IMG/VR virus record: IMGVR_UViG_3300002835_000642
Location: 1-33,316 of that record
Source of the DNA: a virus
Direction: 5' to 3' (one strand)
Length of the DNA stretch: 33,316 nucleotides
Shown: positions 2,608-30,000 of the stretch, piece after piece
Layout of the letters: each line of letters opens with the position of its first letter
Position numbering within the stretch: the first letter of the stretch is position 1
Program-made: the position numbers and the translations under genes
The notes under the pieces: generated by a model
Told to the model about the DNA's origin: nothing
Databases searched by the model: none
What the model saw: only the letters and a program-made list of their open reading frames with translations

Positions 2608-3124
2608 TTGTTAACACCTCATTATCTTTAGCAATGTCAGATAAACGTTTCATAATTTTATCTCTTACCTCTGGATGTTCGCTTGCGATGTCTCGTAAAA
2701 TTTCTACAAGAATCTCTTGACGTCTTTCAATTTCTACCATTTCTTCTGCTAACTCTTTATTTTCTAGCAGTCCCGCCTTTTGAAGCATCTCAATTCTGGC
2801 TTTTTCAATATCCACAACCAGTTTAATCCCTTGAGTTTTTGCAGAAAGATTATTGCCAAGGCTTGCTTCATCAATAACTTCGTATGCTTTTGTAATTAGT
2901 TTTCCATAATGAGCATCCATTGATGCCAATGCTTCTTTTGCTCTTGCACGGATTGCATCATTTGCTGATGCCATCACTTTCCATTCATTTATTAATGCAA
3001 CTACACGCACCCTTGGAATTTCTAATTCTTTTGATATTTTTGTTGGATCATTACCCTTTAGATATTCTTCAACAACCTTATTGACCTGATCTAAATGTTC
3101 TACTAACTCTGCTTCAGTTGACAT
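2588..3124 (-). CDS. terS: Probable terminase small subunit
   Basis: A 178-residue protein directly upstream of, and overlapping, the large terminase. Residues about 25-47 (DPTKISKELEIPRVRVVALI) fit a helix-turn-helix, followed by a long, almost purely helical, charged region (about 60-170) suited to oligomerisation. This is the layout of small terminase subunits, which bind the packaging site and load the large subunit. The ATG at 3124 has GGGAG upstream and overlaps the previous gene by 11 bases. The call rests on the DNA-binding fold and the position next to terL, not on a diagnostic motif; a general DNA-binding regulator is the alternative. Confidence 0.7.
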   Translation of the reverse strand: MSTEAELVEHLDQVNKVVEEYLKGNDPTKISKELEIPRVRVVALINEWKVMASANDAIRARAKEALASMDAHYGKLITKAYEVIDEASLGNNLSAKTQGIKLVVDIEKARIEMLQKAGLLENKELAEEMVEIERRQEILVEILRDIASEHPEVRDKIMKRLSDIAKDNEVLTIVHDVQ

Positions 3125-3917
3125 TTGCGTACTCCCTTATACTCATATTGTAAAGACGATCACACCAAAAAAGATGATAGGATGTTCCTACATGCTCGTT
3201 ATCCCTAGATGTTATTGCAAATCTATCTCTAATTAAACTGTCTGCATGTTTTTTAAAAAAATCTATAAAATCAGTCCTTGGAAAAAACCAAAGTGTTTCT
3301 AAATCCATTTCTGGAAAATTGTAGTCCCATGAGAACATGTATAGTTTAATGTTGTTTGATTTACAATAAAGTTCTAAAAATAACAGATAGTGAAAAGTGT
3401 TAATTTTAAGAACCTCTAAAGATTGTTCGTCCGTGTCTTTTGTATAAGTTCCATGCCTTACTGATCCAGCCTCAAAATCACCAGGATAGTTTAAGAATTT
3501 TCTGGTCTCTTCATTGATTGGAATATAATTTCTGCCTATTTCTGGCAGGCAAATAAAAATTTGATCTGGTTTGCCAAATTTATCTATATACTTAAATATA
3601 TTAGCAACAATTTCTAAACATCCGATTCCTGGCATTGCTAAATTAAAATATCCAGAAACTTTTTTATTTTCTTTTATTCTATTGTATAACTTTTTTGACC
3701 AAACTTCATCTTCTTCTAGGCCAATTCCAAATGTTGTTGAGCATCCAGAAAATAGCAAATGTTCTCCTTCATGATTGCTTTCAAATTCTTCACATCTAAA
3801 GTTTTTAGAATTTAATGTTAGATCGACAAAAGATTGATTTTTAAATAGATGTCCCCACCCATCTAGATCTTTCTTAAATTTGTTAAGAACTAAATGATTC
3901 ATTTTAATTTTGATCAT
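3114..3917 (-). CDS. SGNH/GDSL-hydrolase-like protein
   Basis: The 267-residue protein has the ordered blocks of the SGNH hydrolase fold (esterases, deacetylases, acyl-transfer enzymes). Block I is FSGCSTTFG (56-64) with Ser60 in the nucleophile position of G(D/C)SxTxG. A Gly-containing strand AMPGIG (94-99) fits block II. A strand ending ICLPEIGRN (122-130) is where block III would lie, though its Asn is not at the usual spacing. DNEH (239-242) is the DxxH of block V. The ATG at 3917 is preceded by AAGGA. It sits between a DUF1599-like gene and terS in one overlapping operon. The substrate cannot be read from sequence; cell-wall or capsule deacetylation and virion decoration are both possible. 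Fold call is good, activity uncertain. Confidence 0.62.
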   Translation of the reverse strand: MIKIKMNHLVLNKFKKDLDGWGHLFKNQSFVDLTLNSKNFRCEEFESNHEGEHLLFSGCSTTFGIGLEEDEVWSKKLYNRIKENKKVSGYFNLAMPGIGCLEIVANIFKYIDKFGKPDQIFICLPEIGRNYIPINEETRKFLNYPGDFEAGSVRHGTYTKDTDEQSLEVLKINTFHYLLFLELYCKSNNIKLYMFSWDYNFPEMDLETLWFFPRTDFIDFFKKHADSLIRDRFAITSRDNEHVGTSYHLFWCDRLYNMSIREYANVN

Positions 3918-4242
3918 TTTTTTCCTTGGCTATTTTTAATAATACTAAATATCCGATTAGATCGTCTATGTCGTTGTCACCAACATAGTCAGTTCCTTTC
4001 ATAAGCCTGCTGAGTTTGTCATCAATCCTTACACGTAGTTGTTCTACTGGATCTGATTTACTAAAAATTCTAACTGGATCTAAAGCGGAGTCCCCGTACG
4101 CAATATTTTTTTCAATAAGCATTTGTGCAATTGAATGACAGGTTTGCCAAATATTAATTCCAGACGGAGCGCCTAGGGAATGTAAATATAAATCAGTGCA
4201 TTTAAAATCTCTCACATCTTTATATACTGACTCAAGTTTCAT
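3904..4242 (-). CDS. DUF1599-like (nucleotide-modification-associated) protein
   Basis: The frame extends to 4311, but I place the start at the ATG at 4242 (MKLESVYKD), which has GGAAGGTG upstream and overlaps the preceding small gene by 11 bases; this gives 112 residues. The protein is helical with IAYGDSALDPVRIF, RVRIDDKLSRLMKG and a late DDLIGYLVLLKIA. These are signatures I associate with the phage DUF1599 family, all-helical proteins grouped with nucleotide-modification systems and related in appearance to NTP pyrophosphatases (acidic clusters near DNDIDD). The exact reaction is not established. Nothing next to it is a known base-modification enzyme, although the oxygenase island lies about 2.5 kb upstream in the same direction. 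Confidence 0.68.
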   Translation of the reverse strand: MKLESVYKDVRDFKCTDLYLHSLGAPSGINIWQTCHSIAQMLIEKNIAYGDSALDPVRIFSKSDPVEQLRVRIDDKLSRLMKGTDYVGDNDIDDLIGYLVLLKIAKEKNDQN

Positions 4243-4360
4243 CAGGTTCACCTTCCCAATCAAATACGTCTGGTAAATCTTTAAACGTAGAAATGGCATA
4301 TGTGATTCCAACAGCAGTAACTATTGCTGTTGTTAATAATATCTTTTTAGCCTTACTCAT
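4232..4360 (-). CDS. Small single-pass membrane protein (42 aa)
   Basis: ATG AGT AAG GCT AAA AAG at 4360 opens a 42-codon frame ending in TGA at 4232. MSKAKK is followed by one hydrophobic segment (residues 7-23, ILLTTAIVTAVGITYAI) and an acidic tail ending in DWEGEPDET. It overlaps the preceding HTH gene as ATGA and the next gene by 11 bases; AAGGAAG lies about 9 bases upstream. The shape is that of a small N-in signal-anchor protein. Function is unknown; a host-membrane or lysis-accessory role is only a guess. Confidence 0.65.
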   Translation of the reverse strand: MSKAKKILLTTAIVTAVGITYAISTFKDLPDVFDWEGEPDET

Positions 4361-4527: not shown

Positions 4528-4693
4528 CCCTTGTTACTGGATCAAGTCTATCCCAAAACCCTCCTGGGTTTCCTTGATACGCTTGCCCAGTTTCCCGATC
4601 CAAAAGAAGCCATTTAGTTGGAGCCAAGGTTTTAACTGTTAATATAACATTATTTTTTTCTTCTTTAAAAATAAGAGGCTCTCTATTTGTCAT
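4517..4693 (-). CDS. Small conserved-looking protein (58 aa), unknown function
   Basis: ATG at 4693 overlaps the RuvC-like stop as ATGA; TAA at 4517-4519. The sequence has strand-like segments (residues 15-32) and a Gly/Trp-rich end containing GNPGGFWDRLDP. I recognise no family. The four-base overlap with the resolvase gene and the tight join to the HTH gene show that it is a real member of the operon rather than a chance frame. No signal peptide or membrane segment is visible. Confidence 0.6.
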   Translation of the reverse strand: MTNREPLIFKEEKNNVILTVKTLAPTKWLLLDRETGQAYQGNPGGFWDRLDPVTRVDK

Positions 4694-5271
4694 TTAAAAG
4701 CCTTTGTTAAATTATTAATTGCCCAGTATCCTATCCCGCAAGCATCTGCAACATCGTTATCCCTAATATCTTTGTCGTATTGAACGTTAATAAACCTAAT
4801 AGTCTTTTCTTTTCTTATTTCACGCTCTTGTGTTTTATACCACGACTCTGATTTATTTGGGGTCTTACTTCTCATATCTATTTTTTCTTCTTTGCTAAAT
4901 CGTTTATTGCCAATGTAGTTCTGCCAAGTTATAGGCGAAACAGATCCTATTTCTTTAACTCCACATTCCCAAAATGCTGCTAATATTGCTCCCTGAATTA
5001 ATGCTAAATCAGATACTGTTTTTGGGCTATTCATAAAAATAGTATGCTCAATAACAACAACATCGATATCGTATAGATCAAATAGCGCTCTAGTTTTTGC
5101 ATAGGCGTCTCCTATTTTTTCATAAACTGTATTTCCAGCAAAGGTTACTTTTCCTACAAAATCTAATTTTTTATTATCAAAAATAGCAAAGGCAATGCTA
5201 TTTGTGCTTGCATCGACAGCACAAACCTTTTGCCTATTTGCATTCTCAAGATTTATTATTTTTGCTATCAC
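4690..5271 (-). CDS. RuvC-like Holliday junction resolvase
   Basis: An RNase H-fold nuclease of the RuvC type, which resolves four-way DNA junctions and helps clear branched DNA before packaging. Numbering from the longest frame: the first Asp is in VCAVDASTNSIAFAIFD (Asp22), the Glu in VVVIEH (Glu77), and the final acidic pair in NDVADACGIG (Asp175, Asp178). These are the four acidic positions of the family. The frame can open at TTG 5277, but AAAGGA is ideally spaced (7 bases) only for the GTG at 5271, which I choose (193 residues). It overlaps the zinc-finger gene by 26 bases. The usual RuvC length is about 160-175, so this one has a modest insert around 130-160 (rich in Lys/Glu). Confidence 0.85.
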   Translation of the reverse strand: MIAKIINLENANRQKVCAVDASTNSIAFAIFDNKKLDFVGKVTFAGNTVYEKIGDAYAKTRALFDLYDIDVVVIEHTIFMNSPKTVSDLALIQGAILAAFWECGVKEIGSVSPITWQNYIGNKRFSKEEKIDMRSKTPNKSESWYKTQEREIRKEKTIRFINVQYDKDIRDNDVADACGIGYWAINNLTKAFK

Positions 5272-5545
5272 GCACAATTCCTTTAAGTTTTTTTAATGTT
5301 TTTTCAACTTCTTTGTTATTGACTTGACATACATTGCAAAGGCTGTCGTCATTATACATAGATAAAACTATGCCACAGCCTCCAGAACATTTCTTTGGAT
5401 TTAGTTTTCTTTTTTGTCGTTTAACAGAATTATATCTAGAAAATATTTTTTCTTTTGTAGCGTTTTCTCTGCAAAGAACACTACAATAAACCTGATAACT
5501 CACATTAGGTTTAAATTGACTATTGCACCAACTACATTGTTTCAC
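5246..5545 (-). CDS. Two-zinc-ribbon protein upstream of RuvC
   Basis: A 99-residue protein with two Cys clusters. CSWC (4-7) pairs with CSVLC (21-25), and CSGGC (53-57) pairs with CNVC (70-73); each fits a structural zinc site. A Lys/Arg-rich stretch (about 30-52) lies between them and suggests nucleic-acid contact. The start is GTG at 5545 with AGAGGA upstream, overlapping the Cas4-like gene by 14 bases. Its tight coupling to the resolvase gene suggests an accessory DNA-binding role, but no catalytic motif (HNH or similar) is visible. Confidence 0.68.
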   Translation of the reverse strand: MKQCSWCNSQFKPNVSYQVYCSVLCRENATKEKIFSRYNSVKRQKRKLNPKKCSGGCGIVLSMYNDDSLCNVCQVNNKEVEKTLKKLKGIVRDSKNNKS

Positions 5546-6368
5546 TTAATTCCTCTAGAGTTTTTATTTTAATTACACCATCTCCAGCCTCATCGCATGT
5601 TTTTCTAACTGGGCAAGTTTTACATTTTTTAGAATTGCTTCTATAATTTTTAATTGGTAACTGTTTATTTTTCCAAGCAGCAAAAACTTCATCCATCCAG
5701 GCAAAAGTGTTATCAATATATTCTCTATAGGTATCGTTTACTTCAATAGGGAAAAGTAGTAGTTCATGATTATTTTTGTTTTCATAAATAATAATTCCCT
5801 TAGATTTTTTTAATATCTTCATATATATTAATGTCTGAGTAACGTGATCTTTTTTTGGCTTGCCAGCCTTTTTCCTATATTCGAATACCTCATTATTCTG
5901 TGTTTTAATTTCTCCAACAATCTCTTCGCCATTCCAGACAAGCATACAGTCGCCATATCCAAAAATTGGAGGACTTGAATTAACCACTTTAAACTCTGTG
6001 GTATTTTCTATTTCTTTTGTTTTCGGGTTTTCCTTTTGAAATACCTGGGCAATGCCAGAATCTAGCAATGCCTTTTCAATTCTACTATGAGACAAAACTC
6101 CGCTACTCATATTTGCTATGTCATAGGGAGTGCTGTAAGTTTCAAATATTGCGCCTTCAAATGCCAAATACCAATATCTTGGGCAAACACCATTGCCATC
6201 GCTATAAGTTAAGGTTGACGGAGCAAATGTCTTTTTTGTCATAAACTTTGGATCCTGATTTGCAATATACCCGCTGTTAATTTTTTCCGCTATACCAGAA
6301 ACGTCAAACGCTGGTGCTGGTGCGCTGTCTTTTTTAATCATAACCTGCTGTAATAAATTTTTAGTCAT
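5532..6368 (-). CDS. Cas4/RecB-family PD-(D/E)XK exonuclease with 4Fe-4S site
   Basis: A 278-residue nuclease. The PD-(D/E)XK core is visible as His94 (VLSHSRIEKALLD), Asp140 (FGYGDCMLVW) and Glu153-x-Lys155 (VGEIKTQ), with a Gln/Tyr helix (VTQTLIYMKI) behind it. Cys62 (NGVCPRYWYL) plus Cys249, Cys252 and Cys258 (KKCKTCPVRKTC) are the four cysteines that bind an iron-sulphur cluster in Cas4 and AddB-type nucleases. Free-standing Cas4-like exonucleases are common in phages, where they work in recombination rather than CRISPR adaptation, and no CRISPR array or other cas gene is here. The ATG at 6368 has AAAGGAT upstream and its own extended -10 promoter. Confidence 0.85.
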   Translation of the reverse strand: MTKNLLQQVMIKKDSAPAPAFDVSGIAEKINSGYIANQDPKFMTKKTFAPSTLTYSDGNGVCPRYWYLAFEGAIFETYSTPYDIANMSSGVLSHSRIEKALLDSGIAQVFQKENPKTKEIENTTEFKVVNSSPPIFGYGDCMLVWNGEEIVGEIKTQNNEVFEYRKKAGKPKKDHVTQTLIYMKILKKSKGIIIYENKNNHELLLFPIEVNDTYREYIDNTFAWMDEVFAAWKNKQLPIKNYRSNSKKCKTCPVRKTCDEAGDGVIKIKTLEELSETM

Positions 6369-6403: not shown

Positions 6404-6709
6404 TCAGCGAGTTATGTATTTGAGTGCTGAGACCAAGTTGTTTACGGATTCTGCTGCTGTGTAGTAGATATTTTTTTTAGCCCTATTGTTTTTATCTACA
6501 TTGGCCATCCAGGTTGCTTTTAAAGAAAGTTTAGCAGCAATAGCCTGAAGCCTTACAATTTCAACAGTTGCCACAGCAATAGGAATGTCTGGCTTTGTAA
6601 TAAGTTTAGCGATCATCTCAAGAGATGTTGTCAATTCTTTATCATCCATGTATTCGGCAATTTCTGCCAATCCATTAATAGATTCAAGTGTTGTCTTTTC
6701 TGGCTCCAT
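6404..6709 (-). CDS. Helical protein of unknown function (101 aa)
   Basis: ATG at 6709 shares a base with the stop of the preceding oxygenase gene (TAATG), so the two are translationally coupled. The 101 residues are almost wholly helical, with amphipathic repeats (LESINGLAEIAEYM, TTSLEMIAKLI, VATVEIVRLQAIAAKLSL) and a basic turn DKNNRAKKN (72-80). No Cys, no membrane segment, no catalytic motif. It could be a small oligomeric DNA-associated or regulatory protein, but I do not recognise the family. Confidence 0.6.
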   Translation of the reverse strand: MEPEKTTLESINGLAEIAEYMDDKELTTSLEMIAKLITKPDIPIAVATVEIVRLQAIAAKLSLKATWMANVDKNNRAKKNIYYTAAESVNNLVSALKYITR

Positions 6710-7365
6710 TATTTATTTCCTTTCAATGCCTCTAGTTGTTCGAAAAACTTTTTTCTATATTCTTTCATTTTTGGCATACTGTTATGCTTTTTGATAATTA
6801 CGTCTCGCTCTTCTTTACTCATTTGTTTTTCAGCATAAGGCTGATGTTCAAATTTATTGGAAAAATGAAATACAATAACTTCGCATCTATCATTTTCTTT
6901 TAATATAATTGGATCTCTCCAATGAATTCTATCTGAAGCCTCGAATACCAAAACCTCATTATCCTGTAATATAAATCCTTCATCTTCAACAACAATTGGC
7001 CAATCAATATTGCTTGACATTTGATAATCAATACTAACTTTTGTATAGTAGTTTTCAACATCAAGGTGTGGTGGAAGATTTGGAGAATTGCCATTTCCAT
7101 ATTTACCAAAGTAGTCCAGATACTGATAATGTGTTAGTTCTAAATCTGGATCATCAACAAATTGTTTTGCTAGTGTTATTAATTTTTCTTCAATGTTTTT
7201 TGGAATAGCAAATTCAATTTGAGATCTTGACATTGACTCAATAACCATTGGAGCGTACCTGCTAGATCCAGGTTCCAACAATCTATTTGTTTCTATTAAA
7301 TCTCTTAATGTTCTTTCTTCTTCTAAAGTAAAGAAATTTTTAAAAATACCACTTTTTGTTTCCAT
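6709..7365 (-). CDS. Fe(II)/2-oxoglutarate oxygenase-like protein A
   Basis: A 218-residue protein of the double-stranded-beta-helix type. Metal ligands are visible as His100-Leu-Asp102 (NLPPHLDVENY) and, 48 residues on, His148 in SDRIHWRDP; Arg150, two residues later, is conserved in the three sister copies and may bind the co-substrate. Typical 2OG oxygenases bind the 2-oxoglutarate carboxylate through an Arg/Lys about ten residues after the distal His; here Arg160 is near that place but is not conserved in the sisters. The target could be a protein, a nucleic acid base or a small molecule. The gene has a consensus promoter ending 6 bases before ATG and no Shine-Dalgarno, which predicts a leaderless mRNA. 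Confidence 0.68.
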   Translation of the reverse strand: METKSGIFKNFFTLEEERTLRDLIETNRLLEPGSSRYAPMVIESMSRSQIEFAIPKNIEEKLITLAKQFVDDPDLELTHYQYLDYFGKYGNGNSPNLPPHLDVENYYTKVSIDYQMSSNIDWPIVVEDEGFILQDNEVLVFEASDRIHWRDPIILKENDRCEVIVFHFSNKFEHQPYAEKQMSKEERDVIIKKHNSMPKMKEYRKKFFEQLEALKGNK

Positions 7366-7371
7366 CTTACT

Positions 7372-7400
7372 ATATTACCACAAAAGTAATTTATTGTCAA
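7372..7400 (-). promoter_or_regulatory. Strong leaderless promoter for oxygenase A
   Basis: TTGACA (7400-7395), exactly 17 bases, then TGG-TAATAT (7380-7372). The -35 box is perfect, the spacer is optimal, and the -10 region is extended. Only AGTAAG separates the -10 box from the ATG at 7365, so transcription should start at or next to the A of the start codon. It occupies the 42-base gap between genes B and A. Confidence 0.75.
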
Positions 7401-7407
7401 TTCTATA

Positions 7408-8010
7408 TCAATTATTATTTAAGAGGCTTTGTATGGTTGTTCTGGCAAAGTTGTTACAAGCAACAACTAATTTTTCCGCAATATCATTTTTATGATTTTC
7501 TTTATAGGATGGTTCACTATCTATTGAAAAATGAGCAAAAATCATTTCAATAAAATCATCATCTTTAAATTCTTTATATTCTCTCCAGTGGATTTGATTG
7601 GTTCCAGAAAAGGTTAGGGCTTCGTTATTTTTTAAAGTAAATGATTTATTATCTACAACAATTGCCCAGTCTATATTTGATCTTACCTGAATATCAATTG
7701 TTACTCTTGGAGTGGAAAATGCATTGTCAAAATGTGGAGTTAATATTGGCATTTCTCCATACTGCTTTGAATATCTTGCAAAAGAAATTTCTTGAAGTTT
7801 AACTGGCTCATCATATATTTCTTTAGCGATATGGTTAATTTTATTTATTACTGACTCTGGCAATTGGCTAAACCATATTTTTTGTGCATAAATTGAGGTA
7901 GTTGAAGTTTTTTCTTTTTGATCTAGATCAATTGTTTGGTATAAGTCTTCTATTTCTTGATTTGTAAAAACATCTTTATACACAGCATTCTTAAGTAATT
8001 TACTTTGCAT
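7408..8010 (-). CDS. Fe(II)/2-oxoglutarate oxygenase-like protein B
   Basis: The frame opens at 8043, but the ATG at 8010 (MQSKLLKNAVYKDVF) aligns with the start of protein A and leaves an 11-base overlap with gene C; this gives 200 residues. Metal ligands: His93-Phe-Asp95 (LTPHFDNAF) and His141 in TNQIHWREYK, 48 residues apart as in A, C and D. Strands DIQVRSNIDWAIVV and EALTFSGTNQ match the sisters closely. It is the only intact copy with no -10 box before the ATG; its translation is probably coupled to gene C. Sequence is closest to A by eye (shared SNIDW). Substrate unknown. Confidence 0.66.
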   Translation of the reverse strand: MQSKLLKNAVYKDVFTNQEIEDLYQTIDLDQKEKTSTTSIYAQKIWFSQLPESVINKINHIAKEIYDEPVKLQEISFARYSKQYGEMPILTPHFDNAFSTPRVTIDIQVRSNIDWAIVVDNKSFTLKNNEALTFSGTNQIHWREYKEFKDDDFIEMIFAHFSIDSEPSYKENHKNDIAEKLVVACNNFARTTIQSLLNNN

Positions 8011-8704
8011 TATCTTTAGTCTTAACTTTAACTTCAGTATCAACTATTTCTGTTTCTATCTTATCGCTGTTTATCCCAGTCTCATGCATCAACACGCTTG
8101 ATCTGGTTCTCATTATTCGATCATGATCTCTTTTTTTATATTTAGGAGGAACATGAGTAAACCAACAAAACATCATATTTATATCTGTGTGTGCTGGTAA
8201 AACCTTTTTTTCTCGCCAGTGCATCTGACTAGTACCAGAAAATACTAAACCTTGTCCATCTTCTAAGTTAAAAGTTTTTCCTTCTACAATAACTCCCCAA
8301 GGTTCGTTTGTTTTTAACTGAACATCTATTAAAAACATATCTACTGGCCTTGTGTCATAATGAGGGAAAAGTTTTACCATGTAATCAAACTCAGGACTAT
8401 ACTTTACTATTGAAATTTGTTCTACTATCATTGGTTCCCCAATAATGTTACTCATTACTCCTGTAAGTTTTTCTTTTATTTTATCACTTGGCTGAAGATC
8501 AACATACACCCCTTGGCCACCCCAAGTTTGAATTTTAATATTCTCTTTTGGATATTCTTCCATTTGCTGAAGAATTTCATCTATTTCTTCTTTAGTTAAT
8601 ATCTGATCAACAACTATAGGGTTAAAGTCGCTATCCCTGACGTGTTCTTGGCTTTCAATTAAAGCCTTGTATTTTGGTAAATGGTCATAGTTAAATGTTG
8701 ACAT
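8000..8704 (-). CDS. Fe(II)/2-oxoglutarate oxygenase-like protein C
   Basis: A 234-residue copy with an N-terminal region (about 24-75) shared with the N-terminal half of D: compare SDFNPIVVDQILTKEEIDEI with QDFDPVLFTDVLPNEELQYI, and TWGGQGVYVDLQ with AYAGLGTLNIQF. Ligands: His115-Tyr-Asp117 (LFPHYDTRPVDM) and His162 in TSQMHWREKK. After the fold comes a charged tail of about 45 residues (TEIVDTEVKVKTKDNAK) absent from A and B. A -10 box of perfect sequence ends 6 bases before the ATG; there is no Shine-Dalgarno. Its last codons overlap gene B. Substrate unknown. Confidence 0.67.
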   Translation of the reverse strand: MSTFNYDHLPKYKALIESQEHVRDSDFNPIVVDQILTKEEIDEILQQMEEYPKENIKIQTWGGQGVYVDLQPSDKIKEKLTGVMSNIIGEPMIVEQISIVKYSPEFDYMVKLFPHYDTRPVDMFLIDVQLKTNEPWGVIVEGKTFNLEDGQGLVFSGTSQMHWREKKVLPAHTDINMMFCWFTHVPPKYKKRDHDRIMRTRSSVLMHETGINSDKIETEIVDTEVKVKTKDNAK

Positions 8705-8706
8705 AA

Positions 8707-9039
8707 TTATATTATACCATTACCCTGGTCTATAGGGCGACTCTGTGGGGTTGTATTTTTTGTGTTTACAAGGTCTTCCAGTATAGATAGTTCTACAATC
8801 GCAAGTCTAACCTTAGAATTTTCTTCCCCTATAGAAACTATCAACGCTGGGTCTTTGTGATTTTTTATAGCATCTGTTGTTATTTTTGCCCAAACGTCTT
8901 TATTTAAAGTAAAAGATTTTTTAACTTCTTTAAAGTCAACGGTAAAGTTTTGCCAGGTTGCATCCCCCTTTTGATTATTTCTTCCAGAGTTTTTATGCTG
9001 CTTGGCCCCAATTCTTTTGCTTTCTGATCTTTCACTCAT
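8707..9039 (-). CDS. Probable PD-(D/E)XK (Hjc-like) endonuclease
   Basis: The frame runs back to 9120, but ATG at 9039 (MSERSESKRIG) has AAGGAC upstream and overlaps the zinc-ribbon gene by 8 bases; the protein is then 110 residues. The order of motifs is that of small archaeal-type Holliday-junction resolvases and related nucleases: an early Glu/Lys helix (SERSESKRIGAK), a glycine-poor SGRNNQKGD loop with the first Asp, then FTVDFKEVKKSFTLNKD where VDFK can serve as (D/E)xK, then WAKITTDA and a strand ALIVSIGE. Function would be cleavage of branched DNA or a specific site. Detection is by pattern only; a catalytically different small DNA-binding protein is possible. Confidence 0.58.
   Translation of the reverse strand: MSERSESKRIGAKQHKNSGRNNQKGDATWQNFTVDFKEVKKSFTLNKDVWAKITTDAIKNHKDPALIVSIGEENSKVRLAIVELSILEDLVNTKNTTPQSRPIDQGNGII
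8711..8719 (-). promoter_or_regulatory. Leaderless extended -10 promoter for oxygenase C
   Basis: TGG-TATAAT (8719-8711), a perfect extended -10 element, then six bases (ATAATT) and ATG at 8704. No -35 box is recognisable at 16-18 bases. The element lies inside the last codons and stop of the preceding nuclease gene. The geometry predicts RNA that starts at the ATG. Confidence 0.65.
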
Positions 9040-9214
9040 TGTTAAAGTCCTTTTTCTTTTTCTTTTTAGGCACAAGCGATACTCTTGATATATGTTTTTT
9101 ACTACACATCCAGGTAGCATCTCCTGTCTCTATCCATAGCCTTAATGAAGAAACTTCTTCTTGGCATGTTTTACATGGCCACTTTCCTGGATAAATAGAG
9201 TATTTATTTTGCAA
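9032..9214 (-). CDS. Small zinc-ribbon protein (60 aa)
   Basis: A 60-residue frame opening with TTG at 9214, five bases after the stop of gene E, and ending in an 8-base overlap with the nuclease gene. CKTC (14-17) and a later CSKKH (37-41) form a plausible zinc site, with SLRLWIETGDATWM between and a Lys-rich end (PKKKKKK, residues 49-55). There is no in-frame ATG before residue 36, which lies inside the zinc region, so TTG is the likely start, with a weak GGA about 10 bases upstream. The tail suggests nucleic-acid binding, possibly as a partner of the nuclease. Confidence 0.62.
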   Translation of the reverse strand: MQNKYSIYPGKWPCKTCQEEVSSLRLWIETGDATWMCSKKHISRVSLVPKKKKKKDFNNE

Positions 9215-9219
9215 AGTTA

Positions 9220-9699
9220 TTAATTTCCATCTTCTATTAAAAAATTAAAAAATAAAACTCTGGCAAAATCTTCCTTGTCTTCTGATAAAACAACTTGGCA
9301 TTGTTGTTTTTTTGGATTAAGCAGTATTCCATCACACTTGGACAATGTTATTATTTCGTTGTCTATCGAGTATTTTACATCTGAGGGGGTTAACTGAATC
9401 ATAAAGGTTAATAAATTATCTTTATTTTTGTCAATGTACCCTGGCATAAATTCTTTTTGAGTATTTGTATGTTTAACAAAATAAACGTCCTTAAATATAG
9501 CCTTGTTTGAATTAATTTGTGTTTTTAGGTGCTGAACAATTTTATTTATTAGTATTCCAGGAACGGTAACATTTTGATTTTGTAGGCTGATCAAGTCATT
9601 AAAACGGTAAAAGTTTACCTCGTCTTTATTTTCTAATATTGACTTGCTTACTGTTTTATTTTTTAATATTATGTCAATATCTAGTAATTCATTGTTCAT
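9220..9699 (-). CDS. Oxygenase-fold protein E with the metal site lost
   Basis: A 159-residue relative of the C-terminal half of D. The match is clear: FKDVYFVKH / FENAYLVKN, LLTFMIQLTPSDVKYSID / LVSLMIQLTDSNCNYLIN, VLFFNFLI / LLFFNFSL. Aligned to the active sisters, the HxD position reads PGYID (86-90) and the distal His region reads NPKKQQCQVVLSE, so both His ligands are gone. It cannot bind iron in the usual way and is probably a structural, regulatory or substrate-binding copy. ATG at 9699 comes six bases after the D stop with no Shine-Dalgarno; an AATAAT box five bases before the ATG is a weak candidate for a leaderless promoter. I name the fold by homology to D, so this depends on that alignment. 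Confidence 0.62.
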   Translation of the reverse strand: MNNELLDIDIILKNKTVSKSILENKDEVNFYRFNDLISLQNQNVTVPGILINKIVQHLKTQINSNKAIFKDVYFVKHTNTQKEFMPGYIDKNKDNLLTFMIQLTPSDVKYSIDNEIITLSKCDGILLNPKKQQCQVVLSEDKEDFARVLFFNFLIEDGN

Positions 9700-9705
9700 A
9701 ATTAA

Positions 9706-10908
9706 TTATTTGTTTTCTATTTTATTATTATCTAGAGAAAAATTAAAGAATAGTAAATCAGAGCCACGGCTATCCTGATCAGAAAAAATAATTTTACAGT
9801 CTTGATACGTTGGAGATAAGGTAAGCGCATAATGTTGTTTTACTATAAATGACTTATCATTAATTAAATAATTGCAGTTACTATCTGTTAACTGTATCAT
9901 TAAACTAACTAACTCTTTGTTAGATTTGTTTTCGTATCCCTTTATTATGTCTTCATCATTTACTAAATTTTTAACTAAATAAGCATTTTCAAATGTAAGG
10001 TCAAATTCAGCGTGGACGTGAGTCATAAATCTAATTACTTTATTTTTGGTTTCTTCTGTAATATCGACAATTTGACTTTCTAAATTATTCATATTGTCTG
10101 GATTATAAAAATCAAAAATATCTTTTCCATTAATTGGAGACCTATACATTGTATTGTGTGTAAGTGGTGTTGAGCCATCTACACTAATTTTTTTAAAATC
10201 AGGGTATTGATCTGCCGAGTCTGATATTCGTATTGTATCCCACCAATCTTTTGTTTTGAGTAAGGGTGGCGCTTCAATTTTTTTAGTAATAAAACTTGAT
10301 CTTATTTTCATTATGTCTGAATTTTCCTTAGACATTGCTCTTGGGCTTTTATGTTGTAGCCAAAAAAATATAAGATCAATCTTTGCATTTTCTTTTAATT
10401 TAATTGGCTCTCTCCAATGAACTCTGCCAGTACCACAAAATAAAATTGCCTCGTTATCTCCAAAGTCGAATCTTTTTCCTTCCATAAACAATCCCCAATT
10501 TTCCGTAGACTGAACATGATAGTCAAACACATACATTTCTACTGGTCGTGCATCATAGTGTGGACCAAACTTTGGGTACCAACCAAAATCTGGGCTATAC
10601 CTAGTGCCACCAACTTCTACAACCTCTAACTCTTCTCCTACTGCATCACTAGCCATTTTTTCAATTTTTTTAATAATACTTTCTCTATTTAAAAATTGAA
10701 TATTTAAAGTTCCTAAGCCAGCGTAAGCCTGAACATTTATGTCTTTTTCTTTTACATTATTAAATTGGTCTTTGATATATTGCAATTCTTCATTTGGCAA
10801 AACATCTGTAAAAAGAACTGGGTCAAAATCTTGGCCATTTATTTTTGGTTGACTTTGAACTAGACGAATATACTCTGGAAACGTTTCTTCATTATAATAC
10901 TCATTCAT
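9706..10908 (-). CDS. Fused protein D: active plus degenerate oxygenase domain
   Basis: A 400-residue protein, about twice the length of A-C. The N-terminal half (1-235) is an intact copy with His117-Tyr-Asp119 (FGPHYDARPVEM) and His164 in TGRVHWREPIKL. A linker (about 235-300) follows. The C-terminal half (about 300-400) repeats the beta-helix in the form seen in E, with no HxD (the position reads KGYENK) and no HWR. It looks like fusion of an active copy with a dead one, or a tandem duplication followed by loss of the site. A perfect TATAAT lies 6 bases before the ATG with no Shine-Dalgarno. The separate gene E immediately after it suggests that the dead domain also exists on its own. Confidence 0.7.
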   Translation of the reverse strand: MNEYYNEETFPEYIRLVQSQPKINGQDFDPVLFTDVLPNEELQYIKDQFNNVKEKDINVQAYAGLGTLNIQFLNRESIIKKIEKMASDAVGEELEVVEVGGTRYSPDFGWYPKFGPHYDARPVEMYVFDYHVQSTENWGLFMEGKRFDFGDNEAILFCGTGRVHWREPIKLKENAKIDLIFFWLQHKSPRAMSKENSDIMKIRSSFITKKIEAPPLLKTKDWWDTIRISDSADQYPDFKKISVDGSTPLTHNTMYRSPINGKDIFDFYNPDNMNNLESQIVDITEETKNKVIRFMTHVHAEFDLTFENAYLVKNLVNDEDIIKGYENKSNKELVSLMIQLTDSNCNYLINDKSFIVKQHYALTLSPTYQDCKIIFSDQDSRGSDLLFFNFSLDNNKIENK

Positions 10909-10943: not shown

Positions 10944-11957
10944 CTATGCATTTAGTTTATCCATAATAGACTCTTGAAGATCTAGATCCTCTTTTACACG
11001 ATTAATAAATCCTTCTCTGCCCTGGACTTTTGAGCCATCTGGTAATATATACCAGGCTCCTGTGCGCTCTACTATGCCACTTAATTCAGCAGTATCAATA
11101 AGATCAGCGATGCTGTCAACACCAACTGAGTCACCTCTAAAGTAAAAATCATACTCTCCAGACTGAAACCCTGGACTTGTTTTTGAAAATTGCAAGTCCC
11201 ACCTAATCTTACGACCAACTTTTTCTTCAATTAATTTATCACCTACAGGAATCTTCCCTTTAATTGCTTGATTGTCCGATTCTGAAGAAAATAACTTAAT
11301 AACTGTTGAAGAGTAGAATTTAGTAGCCTGACCGCCAGTAGGCTGCTGGCTAGTATACATAGCAGAAATATTATTACGGCTTTGACTAATAAGAATAAAA
11401 AGAGTTGGCTTAACTTTATTATTAGCATAATTAATCATTTTCCAGGCATTGGAAAAGTCTCTTGATTCTGCTCCAATTTGTTTTGTATTTTCAAGTTGTT
11501 TAAGTTCATCTGAATCTTTTTCAAAATAGATTGCTGGAAGAAGTGATGTAATTGAGTCAACAACAATTAAGTCAACTCCAGCATTCATCAAATTTGTTCC
11601 AATATCTACCATTTCATTTATTGTTCGGCACTGAGAAACAATAAGTTTTGAAGAGTCTACTCCAAGTGACTCAGCCCAAACTTTATCATATGACATTTCT
11701 GCATCAATCCATGCACAAATTTTTCCTTCTTTTTGTGCAAGTGCTACTGTTTGTAAGCATAGGGACGATTTAGCACTTGATTTACTTCCCCATATTAAAA
11801 CTTGGCGTCCATACGGCAAGCCACCATTTAATGCTTTGTTTAACCCATAACTTGGTGTTGCAGCATATTGTGTTGGTGGAATCGTGTCTCCCGACATTAC
11901 GGTCTTTCTTAACTTTGGATTAAGTTGCGCTAATACATCTTCTATGGTCATTGTCAT
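10944..11957 (-). CDS. recA: RecA-type recombinase with variant P-loop
   Basis: A 337-residue strand-exchange ATPase, close to bacterial RecA length. Seen: Walker A region GSKSSAKS (57-64), the catalytic-Glu motif WIDAEMSYD (Glu87), Walker B LIVVDS (130-135), and the long L2-like segment ISQSRNNISAMY...TGGQATKFYSS. The P-loop departs from the standard GPESSGKT: Ala replaces the Gly before Lys63 and Ser replaces the final Thr. ATG at 11957 has AAGGGG 8 bases upstream; a second ATG lies two codons in. It follows dnaE with 21 bases between and is the last replication gene before the oxygenase island. Likely role: homologous recombination in late replication, with the Cas4-like nuclease and resolvase. 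Confidence 0.9.
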   Translation of the reverse strand: MTMTIEDVLAQLNPKLRKTVMSGDTIPPTQYAATPSYGLNKALNGGLPYGRQVLIWGSKSSAKSSLCLQTVALAQKEGKICAWIDAEMSYDKVWAESLGVDSSKLIVSQCRTINEMVDIGTNLMNAGVDLIVVDSITSLLPAIYFEKDSDELKQLENTKQIGAESRDFSNAWKMINYANNKVKPTLFILISQSRNNISAMYTSQQPTGGQATKFYSSTVIKLFSSESDNQAIKGKIPVGDKLIEEKVGRKIRWDLQFSKTSPGFQSGEYDFYFRGDSVGVDSIADLIDTAELSGIVERTGAWYILPDGSKVQGREGFINRVKEDLDLQESIMDKLNA

Positions 11958-20328: not shown

Positions 20329-21452
20329 TATCCAACACCTATATTAAATTTAAATTCAACATAATTACTAGTGTTGGTTGACTTAATAATAGTTTTTGCT
20401 GTATCGTTTTGAATTACTGAATACCCCACTAATCCGTAGAGTGGGTTTGGAGTATTCAAATTTTCAAATCTTAAAGCATCTAACACTACATAAAAATTAC
20501 TTGACACTGAGCCTGAGTCAACTACTGATGCATAAACGTTAACAGTATCTACCGATGTCCAAGAAAAGGTTAACGACCTGTATAACTGTTGAAGTTGTTT
20601 TGTTACAACGCAGTATCTATTATTTGCAAAATCATGTTGGCCACTGGCTGTTCCATTGTCTATTAAAGTTTCAAACCTAGCAAATTTTCCACTGTCTGTG
20701 CTGTTTGTAAATTCTACAATAATCTTAACTGTATCTGGTACTGATAAAGAATCTCCATCTTTATTTATTACAGAAAATGCAAGACGTAACTCATCTGATG
20801 GAGAGTTTTTTTCAAAATTTACAGACATCCCACTTGTCTTTATATATTCTGGATTAGATCCAACTACAAGGTGTCCAGAGGATGTAGTCATTGTAGAAGA
20901 GTCTCCACGGAGAATAATAATATTATTAAAATACCTACATCTTTCATATCTATCTACTCTATTAGTATTATAAAAAATTCTATTGTCTGCATTAGTTTCA
21001 AAAACCTTGGATGTAGTATCTATAACATTATTAGAAAGTGCAGAATCTAGGGGGACTGTAATTCTTTCAATATCGCTTGCTGCTGAAGGGGTAATATGTT
21101 GCCAATTTTCACCTTGAGAAAAAACAAGAACAGGTCGACTGTCATTTGCAGAAGCGCTTGGATTTGCACCAGCAGAATATATTCCTACCTCAGATATTTC
21201 ATATCTTTCCTCTGTTGGCAACTCTGCAGTTAATACTAATTTAGACTGACCATTTTCTACAACGTATCCCCTCGAACTAATTGGAATACGAAACATTTCA
21301 AAATCAAGATTTTGCTTTTCAGAAAAATCTTCTGGAGTATCCGTAGTGTCTAGGGGTTTAGAGCCACAGCCCAAGGCCATATACGAAGCATATGCTGGTG
21401 TTTGACCCAATAAATATTTTGCAATAATATACTTACCAGTATTAGTTATCAT
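20328..21452 (-). CDS. Tail fibre or baseplate-associated protein
   Basis: A 374-residue protein. The start (MITNTGKYIIAKYLLGQTP) followed by SYMALGCGSKPLDTTDT and a strand GQSKLVLTAELPTEERYEI resembles the N-terminal attachment domain of tail-fibre-like proteins, where the protein joins the baseplate. Later parts are beta-rich and end in a Tyr/Asn-rich region (NPLYGLVGYSVIQNDTAKT). ATG at 21452 overlaps the LysM gene by 4 bases with GGGGTGA upstream. Exact place in the tail is uncertain; receptor contact is the usual job. Confidence 0.6.
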   Translation of the reverse strand: MITNTGKYIIAKYLLGQTPAYASYMALGCGSKPLDTTDTPEDFSEKQNLDFEMFRIPISSRGYVVENGQSKLVLTAELPTEERYEISEVGIYSAGANPSASANDSRPVLVFSQGENWQHITPSAASDIERITVPLDSALSNNVIDTTSKVFETNADNRIFYNTNRVDRYERCRYFNNIIILRGDSSTMTTSSGHLVVGSNPEYIKTSGMSVNFEKNSPSDELRLAFSVINKDGDSLSVPDTVKIIVEFTNSTDSGKFARFETLIDNGTASGQHDFANNRYCVVTKQLQQLYRSLTFSWTSVDTVNVYASVVDSGSVSSNFYVVLDALRFENLNTPNPLYGLVGYSVIQNDTAKTIIKSTNTSNYVEFKFNIGVG

Positions 21453-22294
21453 GATTCTATCACCCCAAGAGTTATACTATATATTGTACCACCTATGCTT
21501 ATTTGAACTTCTAGTCTTTCGTCTATTTCCATATTTACTAGGTCTATCACTACATCTTGAGTAGTGGAGTCAACGTAAATGTTTGATCCAGATGGGCCAG
21601 AGCCGTTGACTGGAATTTTAGAGTCAAGTTTAATGCTAAAGTTAGAAAAATATTTGTCAGATGTGTTCTGTAAGCCAAGTATATTTTTAGAAGAATACTC
21701 CTGATTTAAAAACGTTAAATTTTTAATTAATTGATTAGATACGCTATCTCCACTCACCGTATCATGTCTAATTAGTGATAACAACTCTTGCCCACCAATA
21801 TCTTCAAAAATAAGATCAGTTAATATCTCTACAGGCATTATTGTTGGGTCCCATAGTATATTCTCTGGTGTTGCAGTTTTTATTTTAACTGTGGTTGGGG
21901 GTGGCGGTGGTGGTGGCAATTGCGGTATTGGATTTACAAATGCAGAGTACCCACCAAAATTTCCATTAAAATCATTGCCATCATTGTTATTATTGTTATT
22001 TGGCTGTTCATATTTTCCTGCTGGCTCAATTGGTTGTCCAGGCAGATTTACTTTTGTTCCAGACCAAATCATATTTCCATTTTTGTATTTTGGATCTGAA
22101 GTAAATTTAGGATTTAAATCTTTTAATTCTTTTAAAGATATGCCAGCATCTTTAGCAATTTTGGAAAGGGTATCTCCTTTTTGAACTGTGTATTTTTCTA
22201 TTGACTGTTTTTGTGGTGGTGGGGTTGGAGTAGCGGGAGTATAAGTTTTTGCAGCAGCATGTCTTTCCCAGTTTGCGGAGTCTAAGGCACCCAT
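21449..22294 (-). CDS. Tail protein with extended LysM domain
   Basis: A 281-residue protein. Residues about 34-87 form one LysM domain (YTVQKGDTLSKIAKDAG and NPKFTSDPKYKNGN) with a C-terminal extension IWSGTKVNLPG. A Pro/Asn-rich linker with seven consecutive Pro (PIPQLPPPPPPPTTVK) follows, then a beta-rich region to the end. LysM binds peptidoglycan N-acetylglucosamine chains or, in tail proteins, acts in assembly at the tube end. The same extended LysM is present in the tape measure protein. ATG at 22294 has GGAGGTG upstream and starts 1-2 bases after the hub gene stop. Confidence 0.72.
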   Translation of the reverse strand: MGALDSANWERHAAAKTYTPATPTPPPQKQSIEKYTVQKGDTLSKIAKDAGISLKELKDLNPKFTSDPKYKNGNMIWSGTKVNLPGQPIEPAGKYEQPNNNNNNDGNDFNGNFGGYSAFVNPIPQLPPPPPPPTTVKIKTATPENILWDPTIMPVEILTDLIFEDIGGQELLSLIRHDTVSGDSVSNQLIKNLTFLNQEYSSKNILGLQNTSDKYFSNFSIKLDSKIPVNGSGPSGSNIYVDSTTQDVVIDLVNMEIDERLEVQISIGGTIYSITLGVIES

Positions 22295-26427: not shown

Positions 26428-27030
26428 CTATACCTCTTCTAAAACAACATTAATGTTCCATAAATCTTTTCCATTAAGACCATTTCTCTTAATAACAGAA
26501 TATGAAAAATCTTTAAAATACATCTGAATTACTTGACTATACTTAGTTTGATTGACGTATTGATCGTACGCCAAAAATACCCAGAATGGACCCTGGTTAT
26601 TGTTATACCAATTTAATAAATCTAGCCCACCTGCTCCACCATCGACCGTGTATTGATCTTGACCAGTTATTTCGGTTTGACCAGTTGCATCAAAGTTTGG
26701 ATATTGTTTAAATGATCTAGATGGCAACATTTGCCAAGAAGTAGAGAGTACAACTTTATCAGCAATATTATATGCCCTCATATTTCCATTAATCATTCTT
26801 TGTCTATTTTGAATTCTTTCAGATGCAAATGATAACTCTGATCTATTATGGTCTGATAATATTAAAAAGGTTGCTCTTTCTGATTCTAGGGCATCTTGAA
26901 AGTCTGCTCCTGATTCATAGCCATCTGGATAATAAAATCCATCAACTAGAGTTCCTGAATTTTTAGACCACAGTATTGCTTGCGGGGCACCGTATTTTCT
27001 TCTACCATCTAAATATGCTGAATTGGCCAT
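26428..27030 (-). CDS. Probable distal tail (Dit-like) protein
   Basis: A 200-residue protein between tape measure and hub, the slot normally taken by the distal tail protein that forms the ring linking tube and tip. It ends in strands SQVIQMYFKDFSYSVIKRN and LWNINVVLEEV that resemble tail-tube-like ring folds. ATG at 27030 shares a base with the tape measure stop (TAATG), with GGGGG about 10 bases upstream. Assigned mainly by position and length. Confidence 0.6.
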   Translation of the reverse strand: MANSAYLDGRRKYGAPQAILWSKNSGTLVDGFYYPDGYESGADFQDALESERATFLILSDHNRSELSFASERIQNRQRMINGNMRAYNIADKVVLSTSWQMLPSRSFKQYPNFDATGQTEITGQDQYTVDGGAGGLDLLNWYNNNQGPFWVFLAYDQYVNQTKYSQVIQMYFKDFSYSVIKRNGLNGKDLWNINVVLEEV

Positions 27031-30000
27031 TAGTATTTATTCCCCCTAATTCTTTGTGAATCTACATTTTTAATTTGAGCCATAACTATTCTTGCAATAT
27101 CATTTGGATTTGCAGAAGTGCCGCTAGCATCAACCTTTAAACTATAATTATACACTGAGGTAGAGTTATTATTAATAGAATTAGTGCTCATGGCCATAAG
27201 TTTTGATGATGACATTGGAGACATTGATCCAGGATATTTTGACTCGTTAATAGATGTTAGCAATGGGCCAAACCTTTTTGCTGCATTTTTATTAACTACA
27301 AATTCTCCTGGGGTAAGCATGGTAGGCACTTTATCTAACATGCCATTACCAGCAACTATACCGCCATACATCTTCCCTGGAATATTAACTTTTGTACCGC
27401 TAAAAATTGTCTTTCCACCATTGTATTTTGAATCTTGTGTAAATTTTGGATTGGCTGCAAGAATTGCAGAAACAGTTGTTTTGTTGGCTTTAGCAATACT
27501 AGACAAGGTTTGTCCGCTCTTGACTGTAACGCTTGTAGATGTTTTTTTGGTTGTACCAGTACCAACAACTACGGCAGCGCCCAGATCGGCTCCTGGCCCC
27601 CCGTCAGGACCTGCTCCTACCCCACCTGCGCCACCGCCAGTGGTTAAAAATACGTTTCTAAGATTTTGCAATTCTGCAAATAGATTTCTTGCTTCTGTTT
27701 GTAAATCAACCATAACTGTTTTAAGGGCAGAAGAATCTCCAGTTGCTGCCTTAAGTATATTGTTTAAAAATGTAGCGTTATTAATATTAACTCCTGCTTC
27801 ATTGGCAAGATCAAGAGCCTTTGCAGCATCTCTGATTTGATCAGCAGTCATGCCAAAATATTTAATACTTTCTTTTTGTTGTGTAATAGTATCTTCAATA
27901 ACACCTTTTTGTTTATTTAATGCATCAATTTGCAATTGAATTTGTTTTGCTCCAAGTGATGCAATTGCATTTTCTTTTCCAGTTGAGAGTCCTTGTTGGG
28001 CTGCTTCCATGGATGCGGAGGCTTGTTGTGATCTGGCTTCTTGAATTGCTACGGCTGCTGCTGAAATATCGCCACGACTTAGTGCATCTGCAATTGTTAA
28101 TCTTTGTTTTTCTTGATTAGCAATATTTTCATTAAGTGTTTTTATTGTATTTAATGCACCAATTTGCTTATCAAATTTCTCATTAATTTGATCTTCTTGT
28201 AATTTAATACTATCAAGTTGATTTCCTAAAGCCTTGGTTTGGACATCAATACTTTTTAGTTGGTCTTTATATTGCATATCAATTAAATGTTCTTGTAAAC
28301 TAATAAATGCCTCGGCTTTTTTAAATAAATATTGTTGATATTCTCCAGCGCCTCCACCAACTGCAATTGTTTTTTCTAACTCTTTTTGCTTTTTACCATA
28401 ATCTTTAATAGACGCTACTGCATTTTTCCAGTTGTTACCTAGGAATTTAGTTGCGTTTAATTGTTTTGCTAGGTCTACGTTGGCTGCAATTTCTTGTGCG
28501 GTTGCTGCGTCAACACCTGCTTTACGTAATTCTTTAAATACTTTTGTTTGAGTTTGAAGTTCTTTTGTTTGATCTTTTAGTTTTTGCAAAGCAGATTTTT
28601 CTGTAGAGCCATCTGGAATTACTTTTGTTCCTGCTAAAACTGACTTGGCAATCTTGTTTTGTAGTTCTGTAGCCTTGGCAATTATGGCATCAATTTGTTT
28701 TTCAAAATAACTTCCATCAACTGCACCGCCCATCGCAAGGACGCCGCCTCCATTTAAATAACCTTGAAGAATTGCAACATCAATCTGTGCTCCTAGCATT
28801 GCCGCTTGCAACAGTTTTGTTTTTTTAGTTAAATCATCTGTTTTTGTTGCTGCTATGGAAACTGGATTTTCAAATCCCGCCAACGCTTTGTTCATTAATA
28901 AAATTTGAGTTGCTGCGTCACCTGCTTGAAGTTTTATATTAGTCATTAGCATGGTGAATGATTCATTAAGTTGTACTCCAGAAATTTTTCCTTCTTTTTG
29001 CAATAAACTTAAATTATCTAGCACAGATCTAACAGACATTCCTACATTTTCTAGTGCATCAGAGTATTCTTTAGTTTGAGTTACAACTTCTTTTGTTACA
29101 ACCCCTCTAGATCTTGGATCATACCCAGCGACATATGACTTATTAAGCCCCTTTCCTCCAGCAAATTTAGATAGAGATTCTAGTTTTGGCTTTAGGCCTT
29201 CTAGGATATCTTTGTTTAAAGTGTCAACATTTATTTCTTTAAAGTTTAAATTTATTCCTGTTTTGCCTGCTGCTTCTTGTAAAGATGAAATAATAATTTG
29301 TATTTGTTCCTCTGAATATCCTTGTCCTATTAAATTTTGTATTCTTACTAATAATGCTGTTTTTGCATCTGCAGCATTTAGATTTTTTAAATCTTTGACC
29401 GTTCCTGCATAATCTTTTTTAAATTCATCTGATTCTTTAAATTCATCTATTTTTCCTCCCAGCCCAGGATCCATTTTTGCCGCTTCATCTCGATACGAAT
29501 TATCAATTGCAAGGTTACTCTTTTTAGGTGTTACTCCAAAATATTTTGCTGTAGAGTCAATTTGTTTTTGTGTAATAGTTAATGCATTTCCAAATGCCAA
29601 AACCTTTCTTTGTGCTTCTTCTTGTGCCTTTTGTAGTTTTCTAAAACCTGTAACTAATAATGTCGTAACTCCTATAGCCATTCCAATTGGACCCAAGAAA
29701 TTTTTAACAAATAGGGCACCTCTTGCTAACTGTCCAAACAAACCAGTTTTTGCAAATATACCGTTTCCAGCAATACCCATTCCACCTCTAGCAGCCTTAA
29801 CAGCATTACTTGCTACTGACATTCTTGTTGCAGCAAGTTCTGTTATTTTTGCTTGAGTCAGTAGTTGTGTAACAGACATTAATGCAAATAGCGCTCCAGA
29901 GTACTTCATTACTTGTTGTGATAAATCCCCAATTTTTCCACCCGTCATAGACCCCATAGCAGCCATAGATGTCAGGGCAAAAGTTCCAGACATTAAGGCG

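Follow-up and report, generated by a model that had tools for sequence, protein, structure and literature searches.

The 33,316-base IMG/VR virus record IMGVR_UViG_3300002835_000642 (hereafter the window, meaning the whole stretch analysed) is a phage fragment that carries, on its minus strand, an island of six related protein domains at positions 6709–10908. This island is one filling of a fixed, expandable slot in a phage recombination cassette, which holds 0–6 copies. According to their sequences, all six domains are related, but binding of iron in the usual way is possible for only four of them. The favoured explanation, to which we assign a probability of about 0.6, is that the island represents a tandem array of Fe(II)-dependent and probably 2-oxoglutarate (2OG)-dependent oxygenases, together with two dead domains of the same fold. 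Clusters of phage 2OG oxygenases are already known; the unusual feature here is the expansion of a single uncharacterised family at one fixed position, accompanied by pseudoenzymes.

Homology and Arrangement of the Six Domains

Four domains were of the active type: gene A (6709–7365; HLD from 7068, distal HWR from 6924), which adjoins the phrog_9818 gene; gene B (7408–8010; HFD from 7734, HWR from 7590), for which the ATG at 8010, within the end of gene C, is the preferred start codon; gene C itself (8000–8704; HYD from 8362, HWR from 8221); and the N-terminal domain of gene D (10234–10908; HYD from 10560, HWR from 10419). The whole of gene D (9706–10908) encodes two domains. Its C-terminal domain (9706–10233) is an oxygenase-fold pseudoenzyme related to a second one, the product of gene E (9220–9699). 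The coordinates and the minus-strand layout were as an earlier note on this DNA had described them. The same note had pointed to a common spacing between HxD and the distal His, and the measured distances were indeed almost equal: 48 residues in A and B, and 47 in C and the N-terminal half of D.

Sequence comparison indicates that the relationship of the domains is not a matter of chance. A search of the window with C recovered D (E 5e-43), B (4e-26) and A (8.5e-10), and a family hidden Markov model matched A, B, C and D at 9e-56 to 5e-70, these rows having helped to build the model. E and the C-terminal half of D matched each other (E 2e-14). An initial profile-profile comparison of these two pseudo-domains with the active type was collinear but weak (E 0.009); the profile of the two pseudo-domains also reached active B-type proteins, with an E of 8e-7 for the copy of B in locus L017. 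The proposal of six related domains was thus supported, whereas that of six oxygenases has to be reduced to four active-type domains and two pseudoenzymes, since E and the C-terminal half of D contain neither HxD nor HWR. A search with one family pattern recovered no relative from the genomes of 84,980 bacterial and archaeal species, so that at this sensitivity there was no sign of a host origin.

Fold and Active Site

The predicted fold of C is the jelly roll of Fe(II)/2OG oxygenases. The AlphaFold model of C, built on 65 sequences, had a mean predicted local distance difference test score (pLDDT) of 96 and displayed a double-stranded beta-helix jelly roll. Its top Foldseek matches were PHD2 (E 8e-7) and the chlorella-virus collagen prolyl hydroxylase (E 1e-6). 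VIA-align gave Z scores of 14.5 to SnoN (root-mean-square deviation 3.6, 168 aligned) and 13.6 to 3dkq, and the rows listed for C were Fe/2OG enzymes or putative ones. This agreed with the earlier suggestion of an oxygenase-type jelly roll bearing an HxD/H site. As to the hallmarks of the Fe(II)/2OG superfamily, the beta-helix core was present in C and E, and HxD...H was present only in A, B, C and the N-terminal half of D. Residues Y102, H115, D117, W136, H162 and R164 of C were invariant in the 65-row alignment, which includes rows down to 12% identity with C, and R164, at H+2, was the only invariant basic residue. Judging from this conservation, R164 may bind 2OG or the substrate.

Sequence searches of the PDB with C and two family alignments gave no match. 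The family profile aligned HyD on HyD with the Chlamydomonas prolyl 4-hydroxylase (P4H), although weakly (E 0.04), and the HxD register was seen only there. Direct comparison of the profile with canonical phage PF13640 oxygenases gave no alignment; therefore, the superfamily link rests on the fold and the triad. Among the specific subfamilies, the P4H-type model PF13640 (2OG-FeII_Oxy_3) was not among the matches of the 65 members, and there was no Pfam match of this type in the window genes. The AlkB model PF13532 and the TET/JBP model PF12851 matched neither the window genes nor the 65 members.

Pseudoenzyme Domains

In E, GYI occupies the HxD position and the HWR stretch is lost; the C-terminal half of D is similar, with KGY in the alignment. 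All three metal ligands are lost in both domains. The model of E, built on 19 sequences including active relatives, had a pLDDT of 87 and a Z score of 11.6, and it displayed the same oxygenase fold as C. Ligand-less domains recurred in the D-type proteins of three other loci (L018, L042, and L046), and the ratio of non-synonymous to synonymous substitution rates (dN/dS) of E was 0.07 against L003. The possibility that E and the C-terminal half of D are decaying pseudogenes was rejected because of their open frames, the low dN/dS and the recurrence of such domains in other lineages. We propose that the pseudo-domains may act as binding, scaffold or regulatory partners of the active copies, with D as a fusion of one pseudo-domain to one active domain.

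The Slot and Its Copy Number

The slot was organized in the order of RecA, Holliday junction resolvase, a variable number of oxygenases, phrog_9818 protein, Cas4, and RuvC. The interval between RecA and the phrog_9818 gene housed the oxygenase genes in about 40 of the 42 non-redundant loci; the phrog_2002 resolvase, where called, preceded the copies or sat among them, and Cas4, a small basic protein and RuvC followed. One exception was locus L057, a 43.5-kb contig with seven family members scattered on both strands, where none of the RecA cassette genes was found in the stretch read. Among 61 cassettes sampled via the phrog_9818 gene, 31 contained no copy, 22 contained one, three contained two and five contained three, and the copy number in the other sample ranged from 1 to 6; these IMG/VR samples comprise the best-scoring loci per query, so that the fractions are not population frequencies.

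The two nearest relatives, L003 and L004, shared flanking cassette proteins with 97–100% identity and differed in the content of the island. L003 had an E-like and a C-like gene where D stands in the window, and L004 was without E; the identity of B or C fell to 80–84% in these relatives. On a RecA tree of 108 rows, the presence of oxygenases changed 11 times by parsimony, and for the empty group, the starred branches alone forced four changes; many branches are weak, and recombination of RecA may blur the tree and could inflate this count. Copies have been repeatedly gained and lost in the slot. Because of this turnover, adaptation to differing hosts is suggested rather than a core replication function.

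In the window, the slot is bordered upstream by a RecA/UvsX-like recombinase (10944–11957) and downstream by the highly conserved phrog_9818 protein (6404–6709). The cassette also includes a Cas4-like exonuclease (5532–6368), a small basic protein with a weak NinG match (5246–5545) and a RuvC-like Holliday junction resolvase (4690–5277). A conserved non-oxygenase cassette gene, encoding a Holliday-junction-resolvase-like protein (phrog_2002, E 3e-24; 8707–9120), is located inside the island. The cassette genes are all on the minus strand, as is the island. Two different proteins of Holliday-junction-resolvase type (4690–5277 and 8707–9120) were therefore encoded by one recombination cassette.

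Paralogue Groups and Selection

In the paralogue tree, the A-, B-, and C-types each grouped with the copies of other phages and not with each other, which indicated old duplications that were later shuffled. The orthologous groups stand mostly in one order across phages. Against L003 and L004, where orthologues exist, the dN/dS values of A–D ranged from 0.15 to 0.4; those of the flanking genes were mostly 0.02–0.2, and a few short or near-invariant genes were higher. The island genes are all under purifying selection. The idea of parallel enzymes with different targets gained ground from these several constrained paralogues, and the conserved groups are consistent with different targets. The 15 related records contained 1–10 family members each, many of them outside the cassette, with neighbours whose sequences, by eye, resembled glycosyltransferase, SGNH, methyltransferase and 2OG oxygenase genes.

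The Ferrochelatase Annotation of Phage Relatives

The only library family that clearly recognised the active-type genes of the window was phrog_2954, annotated as ferrochelatase, which matched B (9.5e-8), C (1.7e-5), A (2.5e-4) and, weakly, D (0.017). It was matched in 16 of 17 related records, the exception being Streptomyces phage Coruscant. The "ferrochelatase" proteins of cyanophage S-SM1 form a tandem pair with HTD...HWR. The label is also borne by five proteins of four cyanophages and one pelagiphage, which likewise retain H, D, W and HWR; one of them has a canonical PF13640 oxygenase domain (E 2e-17) as a fusion partner. Compared with the island family, the "ferrochelatase" profile had a profile-profile probability of 97.9 (E 4e-13), and the HxD and HWR motifs of the two fell on each other. 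The ferrochelatase models of Pfam (PF00762) and NCBIfam matched none of the window genes, the seven labelled phage proteins or the 16 related records, and they did match control genomes. From these comparisons, the simplest reading is that the phage "ferrochelatase" is itself an oxygenase-fold protein, and the label of phrog_2954 looks wrong.

Phage ferrochelatase has been listed beside 2OG oxygenases (PMC3037559), and in one pelagiphage group it always adjoins a 2OG oxygenase (PMC9599517). A limited literature search found no paper calling it an oxygenase-fold protein. In marine virus ecology, it is interpreted as a gene related to haem or iron (PMC9599517, PMC11561400), and a link to the oxygenase family would correct the annotation used in that field. 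Proteins annotated as ferrochelatase and containing HxD...HWR were observed at 2238–3354 of L114 and in L115–L119 (cyanophage and pelagiphage).

Possible Function and Alternative Explanations

Under the favoured explanation, each active copy would bind Fe(II) through HxD...H and use 2OG and O2, and each would hydroxylate its own substrate during replication-phase expression. The use of 2OG by the active-type domains is likely, with the invariant Arg at H+2 as support. Substrate-specialised hydroxylases are the most likely identity of these copies, and proteins are probably what they modify. Protein hydroxylation is the leading guess because prolyl hydroxylases are among the closest folds; even so, we place a protein substrate at somewhat less than even odds, ahead of a nucleic acid or nucleotide, which is unlikely, and a small molecule, which is slightly more so. 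The isoelectric points were 5.0–5.7 in the window proteins, with a family median of 5.3.

Several results weigh against this explanation. Most 2OG oxygenases bind 2OG through an Arg or Lys about 9–12 residues after the distal His, and other positions exist. In the island family, Lys or Arg occurred at H+9, H+10, H+11 and H+12 in 5, 1, 0 and 11 of the 65 rows, respectively; since this canonical anchor is not conserved, 2OG binding would depend on the invariant Arg at H+2. Pfam, NCBIfam, and PADLOC gave no meaningful match for the window genes, and no 2OG model of Pfam or NCBIfam was found there. The preference for proteins derives solely from the fold neighbours and the acidic isoelectric points. 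Furthermore, the link to recombination is positional and not necessarily functional, because family members also lie outside the cassette.

The location between RecA/Holliday junction resolvase and Cas4/RuvC raised the question of whether the enzymes act on DNA, by JBP/TET-like base oxidation without a precursor pathway or by AlkB-like dealkylation, and thereby protect phage DNA from the nucleases of the host or repair it during recombination. Chains of the AlkB family turned up when the C and E models were compared with known structures, two cyanophage relatives matched the AlkB-type PF13532 weakly and below the cut-off (E 0.02 and 0.003), and rapid turnover would fit counter-defence. However, no C5 methylase (PF00145) was found in 15 related records and no N4/N6 methylase or thymidylate synthase/hydroxymethylase in 15–16 of them, all possibly incomplete; the proteins are strongly acidic, half of the otherwise similar cassettes hold no copy, and the cyanophage relatives are located away from recombination genes. 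The gene at 3904–4311, called DUF1599-like in the earlier note and taken there as a pointer to base modification, matched only phrog_1485 (unknown function). PF07659 was absent from the window, and DUF1599 was rejected as evidence for base modification. Base modification was thus not supported, and we consider action on DNA unlikely. The proteins might instead mainly consume 2OG or alter how the host handles small molecules or iron, as proposed for cyanophages, whose 2OG oxygenases may act in nitrogen sensing (PMC3037559). Some structural neighbours of the island family are enzymes acting on small molecules or PiuC-type proteins of iron uptake. A 2OG sink, however, needs neither four to six deeply diverged orthologous groups nor pseudo-domains, and no metabolic genes adjoin in the cassette, which makes this account less likely still.

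It seems improbable that these jelly rolls serve in structure or binding, with HxD/HWR having no part in catalysis. Two of the six domains are kept without ligands and the canonical 2OG anchor is missing, as such a role would allow; against it, H, D, and H are invariant in 65 of 65 rows along with Y, W and R, and the closest solved folds are Fe/2OG enzymes. A broader proposal, which we regard only as a tentative possibility, is a virus-specific family with a non-standard anchor (Arg at H+2) that would form a gene-accordion hotspot for counter-defence or host modification. Within the recombination operon, catalytic copies and their pseudoenzyme partners would come, go and be exchanged together, and in marine phages members of this family would be concealed by the "ferrochelatase" name.

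2OG oxygenases are common in phages, where they are classed among the metabolic genes. A natural experiment is offered by cassettes that closely resemble each other and yet carry no family domain, one, three or six: copies can be added or removed and the effect on the phenotype followed. A clear biochemical question arises from the pseudoenzymes and from the lack of the canonical 2OG anchor.

Comparison with Known Systems

The earlier note knew of no standard phage module of this form. That did not hold for 2OG oxygenase clusters, which are known in cyanophages and pelagiphages (described for the latter in PMC9599517), but an expandable array of a single family in a recombination cassette was not found described. 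Several oxygenase genes stand side by side in S-SM1 (genes 056–061) and in Pelagibacter phage Mosig (055–060), as in the island. However, those clusters mix families (PF13640 and PF13759 plus the HWR family), whereas the island consists of one family in a fixed recombination slot. The "ferrochelatase" proteins of cyanophages and pelagiphages (phrog_2954/phrog_3531) belong to the same family as the island, and phrog_2954 recognises most members here. Their proteins differ in being shorter, in falling on other branches, and in occurring in myoviruses beside canonical 2OG oxygenases, usually in one or two copies.

The prolyl 4-hydroxylases (PHD2, viral collagen P4H, and Chlamydomonas P4H) share with the island the jelly roll, HxD...H and an alignable N-terminal region. 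The island family differs in having no PF13640 match, no conserved basic residue at H+9 to H+12 and an invariant Arg at H+2. The spacing from HxD to His in P4H and PHD2 is longer than the 47–48 residues of the island. The N-terminal PHD-like domain of Vaccinia C16 (8ag3) is a viral oxygenase-fold domain among the structural matches of E; it belongs to a eukaryotic virus, and the likeness is structural.

The cassette of Stanwilliamsviridae, represented by Coruscant, has the order of DnaE, RecA, Holliday junction resolvase, phrog_9818-like protein, Cas4, and RuvC in common with the window. The slot of Coruscant contains no oxygenase, and none was detected elsewhere in its genome by phrog_2954.

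Phage Background and Other Genes

The window belongs to a tailed phage according to its genes, which include tape measure, tail, terminase, DnaE polymerase, primase, helicase, SSB, RecA, Cas4, and RuvC. We infer an actinobacterial host because DnaE is 53% identical to that of Streptomyces phages and the cassette gene order is that of Coruscant. The tape measure protein (27030–33236) has a LysM/endolysin-like segment near residues 1890–1955, and a separate LysM-type protein is encoded at 21449–22294, downstream of the tape measure gene. After the terminase there is a partial gene (2–808), and a relative of the same cluster opens with a signal-peptide-like sequence, which suggests a secreted or surface protein. 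An SGNH-hydrolase-like gene at 3114–3917, called by eye, was 97% identical in L004 and 67% in L003 among neighbours of >95% identity; it represents a second variable slot.

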